From contig JANYJX010000012.1 in NCBI GenBank assembly GCA_025358355.1, forward strand, positions 1 to 64,000: a DNA stretch of 64,000 bases. The letters run 5' to 3'. The translations under genes were made by a program, and so were the position numbers. The stretch's first letter is position 1. Each line of letters opens with the position of its first letter. Below are positions 34,525-35,730 of the stretch, one piece after another. The stretch comes from Actinomycetes bacterium (GTDB taxonomy: Bacteria; Actinomycetota; Thermoleophilia; Gaiellales; Gaiellaceae). Below the pieces are notes generated by a model. The model searched no databases. It worked only from the letters and a program-made list of their open reading frames with translations, and was not told where the DNA came from.

Positions 34525-34537
34525 AATTCCACCACCA

Positions 34538-34611
34538 TCGGGGTGCCCAGATTCGAACTGGGGGCCTCTCCGACCCGAACGGAGCGCGCTACCAGGCTGC
34601 GCCACACCCCG
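34538..34611 (-). tRNA. tRNA-Pro (anticodon CGG), CCA not encoded
   Basis: CGGGGTGTGGCGCAGCCTGGTAGCGCGCTCCGTTCGGGTCGGAGAGGCCCCCAGTTCGAATCTGGGCACCCCGA cloverleaf. Confidence 0.96.
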
Positions 34612-34651
34612 AGCCGAGAAAGGGTAGCGGGTAACCGACTACCATCGCGCT

Positions 34652-35398
34652 GTGGCACGCCGAGACGAGATTGTCGCGTTCGCGAACGCGCTGCTCGAGG
34701 TGGAGAAGTGGCAGGAGTTCGCACCTCCCGGGCTACAGGTTGTCGGCTCGGACGAGGTGACGCGCATCGCATGCGGCGTCTCAACCTCCCTCGAGCTGTT
34801 CGAGTGCGCGGCGGCAGCGGGCGCCGAGCTCGTCCTCGTCCACCACGGCCTGTTCTGGCGGAACGAACCGCTCGTCGTCGACCGGCGGCTGCGCAAGCGG
34901 CTCGAGACGCTGTTCGCGGCGAACATGTCTCTGGTCGCGTACCACCTCGCGCTCGACGCGCATCCGGAGGTCGGGAACAGTGCGCAGCTCGCGCGGCGGA
35001 TCGGGCTCGTGGAGCCGTTCGAATCGTTCGCGGGAGTCGGCGTCGGTGGTCGCCTCGCCGCTCCGATCTCGGTCGCCGACCTCGCCGCGCGCATCCACGA
35101 GACCGTTGACCGTGAGCCGCTCGTCTTCTCCGGGGGCCCCGCTCTCGTCGAGCGCGTCGCCGTCTCGACCGGCGCCGCCGGCTACGACCTGATTCGCGCG
35201 GCGCACGAGGGATACGACTGCCTGGTGACCGGCGAACCCGAGGAACCAAGCCTGCACACGGCTCGCGAGCTCGGCATCCATCTCATCGCCGCCGGCCACG
35301 ATGCGACCGAGCGGCTAGGCGTTCAGGCGCTGGCCGCGAGAATTGCCGACGAGTTCGATGTTGCGTGGGAGTTCATCACCGTCGATAACCCCGTTTGA
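34652..35398 (+). CDS. Nif3-like dinuclear metal center protein
   Basis: VLVHHGLFWRNEP; YDLIRAAHEGYDCLVTGEPEEPSLHTARELGIHLIAAGHDATERLGVQAL. Confidence 0.93.
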   Translation: MARRDEIVAFANALLEVEKWQEFAPPGLQVVGSDEVTRIACGVSTSLELFECAAAAGAELVLVHHGLFWRNEPLVVDRRLRKRLETLFAANMSLVAYHLALDAHPEVGNSAQLARRIGLVEPFESFAGVGVGGRLAAPISVADLAARIHETVDREPLVFSGGPALVERVAVSTGAAGYDLIRAAHEGYDCLVTGEPEEPSLHTARELGIHLIAAGHDATERLGVQALAARIADEFDVAWEFITVDNPV

Positions 35399-35401
35399 CG
35401 A

Positions 35402-35430
35402 TTGCGCACGTCCTCCGGCGGGAGTATCTT
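35402..35430 (+). promoter_or_regulatory. Candidate sigma70 promoter
   Basis: TTGCGC (35402-35407) - 17 nt - TATCTT (35425-35430). Confidence 0.5.
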
Positions 35431-35439
35431 CCGCGCATC

Positions 35440-35469
35440 ATGGATTCTTTCGGGAGGCGGGCCTGTTGA
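35440..35469 (+). CDS. Candidate leaderless leader peptide MDSFGRRAC
   Basis: ATG lies 9 nt after the -10; TGA stop falls inside hairpin-1 loop. Confidence 0.35.
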   Translation: MDSFGRRAC

Positions 35470-35500
35470 CCCCCGCCACGACAACCGAGCAGCTGGTCGA

Positions 35501-35535
35501 GCCCGATCGTGCGCATTGCGCCGACGGGCTTTTTT
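35501..35535 (+). terminator. Rho-independent terminator/attenuator
   Basis: GCCCG A UCG U GCGC AUU GCGC CGA CGGGC UUUUUU. Confidence 0.85.
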
Positions 35536-35556
35536 GATGCTCAAAGGAGGGACGGC

Positions 35557-35730
35557 ATGCCGAACCATCTGACGCCCGAGGAGCTGTCGAACGAGACCGG
35601 CCTCGACCGCGACGAGATCATCAAGCTGTGCATCGAGGAAGGCGTCCCGATCTACCACGGAAAGATCGACAAGACCCTCTTCCAGGCGCAGCTAATGGCC
35701 GTCGGCGCCGGAGCGCGCACCTCCGCGTAG
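35557..35730 (+). CDS. Small (57 aa) HTH-like protein
   Basis: Strong SD AAAGGAGGG; MPNHLTPEELSNETGLDRDEIIKLCIEEGVPIYHGKIDKTLFQAQLMAVGAGARTSA, excisionase/MerR-like spacing. Confidence 0.7.
   Translation: MPNHLTPEELSNETGLDRDEIIKLCIEEGVPIYHGKIDKTLFQAQLMAVGAGARTSA

Follow-up and report, generated by a model that had tools for sequence, protein, structure and literature searches.

The window analysed here, a stretch of 64,000 nucleotides, contains a gene for a protein of 57 amino acids, likely small and winged-helix-turn-helix (HTH)-like, that is preceded by a compact leader in which a short and apparently leaderless open reading frame (ORF) ends with UGA inside the loop of a hairpin, H1, and is followed by an intrinsic terminator. 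About 90 distinct relatives likewise have the leader ORF, H1, and the terminator ahead of their HTH gene, and comparison of the sequences indicates that this module is deeply conserved, being found also in another family of the Thermoleophilia (designated f5). From the pattern of what is kept and what varies, we lean towards the view, which we hold somewhat more readily than its opposite, that this leader attenuates transcription of the HTH gene in a translation-dependent manner and would sense translation or termination independently of any amino acid.

The promoter, the nine-codon ORF, H1, the terminator, the Shine–Dalgarno (SD) sequence, and the 57-amino-acid gene all lie where a previous sequence-only reading of this DNA had placed them, and the elements of the locus are as follows:

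34652-35398, plus strand: gene for a DUF34/NIF3 protein (Pfam PF01784, E = 1.4e-54), the upstream neighbour, outside the module
35402-35407, plus strand: -35 element TTGCGC, of which TTGC is kept in relatives
35425-35430, plus strand: -10 element TATCTT, after a 17-nt spacer; family consensus TATYCT
35440-35469, plus strand: leader ORF MDSFGRRAC, 9 codons, probably leaderless, with its TGA at 35467-35469
35456-35477, plus strand: hairpin H1, GGCGGG (35456-35461) with CCCGCC (35472-35477), the leader stop lying in the 10-nt loop
35481-35489, plus strand: linker motif ACAACCGAG, unpaired in the model; family form ACA-N1-5-GAG
35500-35535, plus strand: intrinsic terminator AGCCCG...CGGGC (35500-35529) plus TTTTTT (35530-35535), between the leader ORF and the HTH gene
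35543-35551, plus strand: SD sequence AAAGGAGGG, ahead of the 57-amino-acid gene
35557-35730, plus strand: gene for the 57-amino-acid small winged-HTH-like protein, found only within Thermoleophilia among the genomes searched

As read from the window, the leader ATG at 35440 stands 9 nt past the -10 element, the CGGGC at 35458-35462 is complementary to the GCCCG at 35501-35505, and the T-run is separated from the HTH start codon by a gap of only 21 nt, so that a full promoter after the terminator has no room. A consensus promoter scan of the window missed the leader promoter, the folding z-score of the window leader alone was -0.6, and an Rfam scan gave no match for the leader at the gathering threshold, with weak matches far below. 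The window sequence taken alone is thus unremarkable, and the weight of what follows rests on the comparison with relatives. In the same region a tRNA-Pro (CGG) gene at 34537-34612 on the minus strand was called by ARAGORN and was absent from the Rfam scan at the gathering threshold.

The HTH gene was present in 184 of 250 genomes of the Thermoleophilia and in none of the 297 genomes of the phylum sample outside that class; the named relatives are metagenome-assembled genomes (MAGs) of Gaiellaceae and other Thermoleophilia, and the genomes compared are nearly all MAGs without cultures. The upstream regions of 150 loci were collapsed to 104 distinct ones. A Gaiellales-type locus also occurs in L101 and L122, whose records bear the titles Burkholderiales bacterium and Acidobacteriota bacterium and which are probably mis-titled or contaminated MAGs.

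With a promoter defined as a TTGC-like element, a spacer of 16–19 nt, and TANNNT, 99 of the 101 distinct leaders scanned passed, and 97 leaders had both a promoter-like pair and a start codon (88 ATG, 9 GTG) located 5–10 nt past the -10 element. The scan that placed promoter and start favours sequences close to the family consensus; the result on the reading frame given below for the main family is independent of that choice. The spacing suggests that the leader RNA probably starts directly with the start codon, i.e., that it is leaderless. In f5, a leaderless-looking ORF of 9–12 codons was found in 11 of 12 genomes, several of them behind TTGACA-N17-GATAAN, although in two of those 11 leaders the promoter match that was relied on is weak, and one of the two (L228, the second-best match) was chosen by eye. 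Three other lineages (f8, f10, and f11), read by eye, were without the leader and had a promoter apparently near the SD sequence instead. In many relatives (e.g., L025, L111, and L128) the start of a divergent gene falls within the -35 region of this promoter (TTGCGTCCGTCAC, which read backwards begins GTG ACG GAC GCA), an arrangement that suggests a bidirectional promoter.

That the leader ORF would prove to be conserved in relatives was borne out by its length and its frame. The ORF had exactly 8 (13 leaders), 9 (61), or 10 (18) codons in 92 of the 97 distinct leaders with a start, and, among TGA triplets located 15–38 nt after that start, 96 were in frame and one was out of frame. The HTH gene tree, which rests on 135 bases and is rough, requires at least 12 changes in the length of the ORF, all of them by whole codons. 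The ORF of L109, with 29 codons, contains a GC-rich in-frame insertion, the frame and the stop being preserved.

The peptide itself is not kept. No conserved leader peptide was found among the distinct leaders, nor were conserved regulatory codons of one amino acid, of the trp/ilv/cys type, across 93 leaders, the last residue of which was R in 28, A in 18, L in 15, E in 10, G in 7, D in 5, P in 4, and others in the rest, with at least 34 changes on the tree. The sensing of cysteine or arginine that had been suggested from the window did not hold: cysteine is the last codon in 1 of the 93 leaders, that of the window, and is present anywhere in only 9, while the arginine codon found among the final four in 82 of the 93 leaders coincides with the CGG, CAG, or CCG triplets of the H1 5' arm and varies with that arm. 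The leader, on this comparison of sequences, encodes no single sensed amino acid. In a sister family (f7; L068, L069, L222, L225, L229, L230, L233-L235, and L237) the terminator upstream of the HTH gene is kept and the leader ORFs differ, often being longer (e.g., an ORF of 27 codons whose end immediately precedes the terminator); such leaders may possibly represent a more classical coupled attenuator.

The stop codon, for its part, is nearly invariant. It was TGA in 92 of the 93 leaders and TAG in one, whereas among 211 stops of neighbouring genes at the same loci, called with a crude ORF and GC3 filter that makes this background approximate, we counted 103 TAG, 76 TGA (36%), and 32 TAA, and the stops of the HTH gene itself were 68 TAG, 20 TGA, and 15 TAA in 103 genes. 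The minimum number of changes on the same rough tree was 1 for the leader stop versus 26 for the HTH stop. The bases on both sides of the leader UGA vary, so that the codon itself is kept and not a wider loop motif; UGA is read by the release factor RF2 and not by RF1. The leader stops of f5 were less strict, with nine TGA and two TAG. An overlapping restart at NTGA was rejected, the base before the TGA (T 42, G 22, C 21, A 8) not being restricted to that of a start codon. The predominance of TAG both in the neighbouring genes and in the HTH gene seems unusual for GC-rich bacteria.

H1 encloses the leader stop in 90 of the 93 leaders and begins at nucleotide 17–20 of the ORF in 75; the stop was fully unpaired in 76, a count that alone is moderate evidence, in that shuffles keeping the TGA in place gave a fully unpaired stop in 41%. 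The arms of H1 paired with their own partners better than with swapped ones (z = -8.5, such arm-swap scores being inflated by the shared ancestry that stays in them), and pairing was 89% versus 38–51% in slid controls, which are less affected by that ancestry. Changes on both sides were found in 5 of the 6 base pairs, and H1 is, by these sequence measures, maintained through compensatory change.

The terminator covaries as well (z = -13.5 by arm swap, subject to the same inflation), with a pairing of 96%; it is present in covarying form in 87 leaders, the distance from the stop codon to the T-run being mostly 57–75 nt. Downstream, the SD region forms a duplex with the anti-SD sequence of -9.5 kcal/mol on average over the relatives. 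In five loci (L005, L019, L023, L028, and L041) the terminator and the HTH gene are set further apart by about 60 nt of extra, hairpin-rich sequence, the leader being intact.

The complementarity between CGGGC and GCCCG had been taken as a possible antiterminator, a proposal that fell on comparison with relatives: that helix showed no covariation (z = +1.1, with no compensatory changes), its pairing was 82.2% versus 82.8% in shuffles, the corresponding fold was 13.2 kcal/mol less stable than H1 plus the terminator, and the helix is broken without compensation in relatives where H1 compensates. A pairing of the H1 3' arm with the terminator 3' arm was likewise unsupported (z = +2.5). In a systematic scan of the leader that included the SD region, the only strong signals were H1 and the terminator, the best of the other alternative pairings reaching a z of about -3.5 and about -2.5 kcal/mol. 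The window terminator, moreover, still folds with the ribosome modelled at any part of the leader and a ribosome located at the leader stop would, given a footprint of the usual size, extend over both arms of H1, so that the 5' arm would not be freed to pair with the terminator.

The linker between H1 and the terminator contains ACA-N1-5-GAG in 32 of 87 leaders, versus 2.5 expected in shuffles (maximum 9). In the family this stretch often reads GACAAnCGAGG or the SD-like GGAGG, and it is mildly SD-like overall, with a duplex of -6 kcal/mol or stronger in 51% of cases versus 22% of shuffles; the motif may act in pausing, be bound by a factor, or provide a parking site for ribosomes.

That these elements form a conserved module belonging to the small HTH gene, as had been proposed from the window, is supported by the frame and the covariation already described, and the genomic distribution was followed with a covariance model (R2), a first automatic model (R1) having lacked H1. 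R2 gave a single match in the genome of the window, at the HTH gene (E = 1.2e-19); the window leader being among the 51 training sequences, this match speaks for uniqueness and is not an independent detection. No second copy was found in that genome by R2, nor by a strict pattern that the TATCTT of the window also fails. In relatives the strong full-length matches were at the HTH gene, with one such copy per genome, the remaining weak or partial ones not having all been inspected. One match in a genome without the HTH gene (G077) was ruled out as a second module, being a terminator at the end of a coding sequence.

The terminator had also been envisaged as possibly no more than the end of the Nif3 gene, an explanation that we reject: Nif3 lies upstream in the same orientation, and not always adjacent, in just 36 of the 104 loci, and about half of them have an oppositely oriented ORF as the nearest one upstream, so that the terminator is not merely an end of Nif3; where a divergent alpha/beta-hydrolase-like gene takes the place of Nif3, the module stays with the HTH gene. 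Where neighbours were named from sequence by eye, the divergent upstream gene was alpha/beta-hydrolase-like in L111 and L128, and the convergent downstream gene was Ku-like in L111, L128, and L044. What follows the leader is an HTH-like gene among varying neighbours (Nif3, alpha/beta-hydrolase-like, Ku-like, and acyl-CoA synthetase genes), and no amino-acid biosynthesis or transport operon was found under its control.

The HTH protein has nine invariant residues in the alignment (H4, T6, P7, E9, C25, P31, G35, D38, and L41), and its AlphaFold2 model, a small helix-turn-helix plus a short strand with a mean pLDDT of 84, likely places it among small winged-HTH-like proteins. Searches against Pfam, NCBIfam, PHROGs, PDB sequences, and Foldseek gave weak matches at most. 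The nearest solved structures in Foldseek, all at E of at least 0.8 (which was also the best value overall), include BldC (TM about 0.6), phage Xis, and Tn916 Xis, and a model of IF2 was among the top ten in that same E range. With members scored singly, neither the MerR-like HTH_17 (BldC, Xis) nor IF2_N reached the Pfam cut-off: HTH_17 appeared below threshold in 26 of 54 members (at most 24.7 bits against a cut-off of 27; best E among the 54, 2.8e-5) and IF2_N in 32 of 54 (at most 19.8 bits against 25.3; best E among the 54, 8.8e-5), so that a relationship to IF2_N is only a lead.

In a translation-dependent attenuator of the kind that we favour, the RNA polymerase would begin transcription on the A of the leader AUG or on an adjacent nucleotide, as the spacing from the -10 element suggests, and a 70S ribosome would load directly, read the 8–10 codons irrespective of the amino acids that they specify, and terminate at the UGA. 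Because H1 usually begins at about nucleotide 17–20, it would lie just past the edge of the initiating ribosome; a ribosome elongating or waiting at the UGA would hold H1 open, whereas an empty or cleared leader would let it close. The HTH gene would be transcribed only by polymerases passing the terminator, and ribosome loading together with the dwell at the UGA, the RF2 codon, would set that passage, the level of the HTH protein then following how translation or termination is proceeding. Reasoning from the analogous whiB7/wblC and Sinorhizobium DUF1127 leaders, we incline to the view that slow or impaired translation of the leader would increase readthrough. Counting against such an attenuator are the lack of any terminator-disarming alternative pairing that covaries in the systematic scan, the folding of the window terminator under every modelled ribosome position, and the situation in f5, where a clear T-run is absent from most of the terminator hairpins and TAG ends 2 of the 11 leaders.

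A narrower version, to which we give limited credence, would have the attenuator read termination itself: the start and the UGA within the hairpin being the sole constrained codons, RF2 activity or the dwell at the UGA would set the level of a regulator specific to Thermoleophilia, and this small regulator might possibly act back on translation, as its weak, sub-threshold similarity to the IF2 N-domain could suggest.

If, alternatively, the attenuation were fixed and unregulated, the terminator would set a low, constant HTH expression, or insulate the gene, and the ORF with H1 would protect the 5' end or shield the terminator from ribosomes. This explanation, which we consider unlikely though in need of serious weighing, agrees with our finding neither an antiterminator nor an alternative pairing and with a terminator that folds at all modelled ribosome positions, but leaves unexplained the UGA in 92 of 93 leaders, the limit of 8–10 codons, and the placing of the stop within H1 in 90 of 93. 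The terminated leader, of about 97 nt, could otherwise be the product, as a trans-acting small RNA or the mRNA of a micro-peptide, with the HTH gene expressed by leakage. The unit of promoter, ORF, and terminator is indeed compact, and it is intact in the five loci with extra sequence before the gene; yet neither a peptide nor a long unpaired stretch of RNA is conserved, and no full copy of the unit was found other than at the HTH gene, so that we judge this alternative improbable. Still less probable, in our estimation, is an autoregulation in which the HTH protein would bind its own leader, either as RNA or as the DNA of the linker motif, and so set the readthrough: the conserved ACA..GAG and the predicted HTH-like fold would fit, whereas the UGA-ended leaderless ORF would not be accounted for.

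A classical attenuator responding to cysteine or arginine, with CGGGC/GCCCG as its antiterminator, has in its favour the RRAC-stop encoded in the window, the frequent arginine near the end of the leader ORF, and the complementarity of the two segments there; the drift of the last residue, the cysteine peculiar to the window, the identity of the arginine codons with the GC stem of H1, and the failure of the antiterminator in covariation and stability make us regard it as very improbable. Recoding or readthrough of the UGA (including a selenocysteine fusion), which would give an N-terminally extended HTH protein and to which the conserved UGA and, in the window, the 87 nt that are open and in frame from it to the HTH ATG might point, is hardly credible and was ruled out by the random frame in relatives, that distance modulo 3 being uniform (31/30/32) over the 93 leaders.

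With regard to known systems, mycobacteria have leaderless short ORFs encoding polycysteine (Canestrari et al. 2020, doi 10.1111/mmi.14498), which are reportedly, by the title of that work, cysteine-responsive; the Gaiellales leader resembles them in being an apparently leaderless short ORF in an actinobacterial 5' leader that would control downstream expression, and differs in having no conserved amino acid, a UGA stop placed in the loop of a hairpin, and, after that, an intrinsic terminator. In the whiB7/wblC leaders of mycobacteria and Streptomyces, an upstream ORF (uORF) is combined with a Rho-independent terminator, and an antiterminator forms when translation of the uORF is disrupted (PMC11550727). 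The likeness here is that of a uORF and a premature terminator before a regulator gene, with the T-run 21 nt from the start in the window; those leaders respond to an impairment of translation and not to one amino acid, and the Gaiellales leader is likewise without a single sensed amino acid, but no antiterminator was found in it and the regulated protein is of a different family. The duf1127_1 leader of Sinorhizobium meliloti, for which Rho dependence is proposed and which has an RBS-led uORF but no intrinsic terminator, also reads translation rather than one amino acid (PMC12218461), whereas the Gaiellales leader has a covarying intrinsic terminator and an apparently leaderless ORF. Finally, ilvB1 of M. 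tuberculosis is under a ribosome-mediated attenuator of the trp/ilv type (PMC13236596), in which the position of the ribosome is the signal. The order of leader ORF, terminator, and structural gene is shared; of the features of trp/ilv/cys-type attenuators, an in-frame leader ORF upstream of a terminator is present in the Gaiellales leader (96:1, its translation being predicted), and neither a run of regulatory codons nor a conserved, mutually exclusive antiterminator was found. As far as the searchable, open-licence literature goes, the leader system is undescribed, no account of such a leader in Gaiellales or Thermoleophilia having been found there.

In most uORF-based attenuators the signal is an amino acid, a drug, or a metabolite, sensed by way of specific codons or peptides, and sensors of leaderless initiation or of UGA/RF2 termination have, to our knowledge, rarely been described. 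In this leader, evolution across many genera fixes only the start, the length, the frame, and the UGA within the hairpin, a pattern of constraint that points to a sensor of one of those latter kinds. The module would thus offer a compact and testable cis element, together with a regulator gene of unassigned function that is common to most Thermoleophilia, an abundant and hardly cultured group to which the Gaiellales of soil and water belong.
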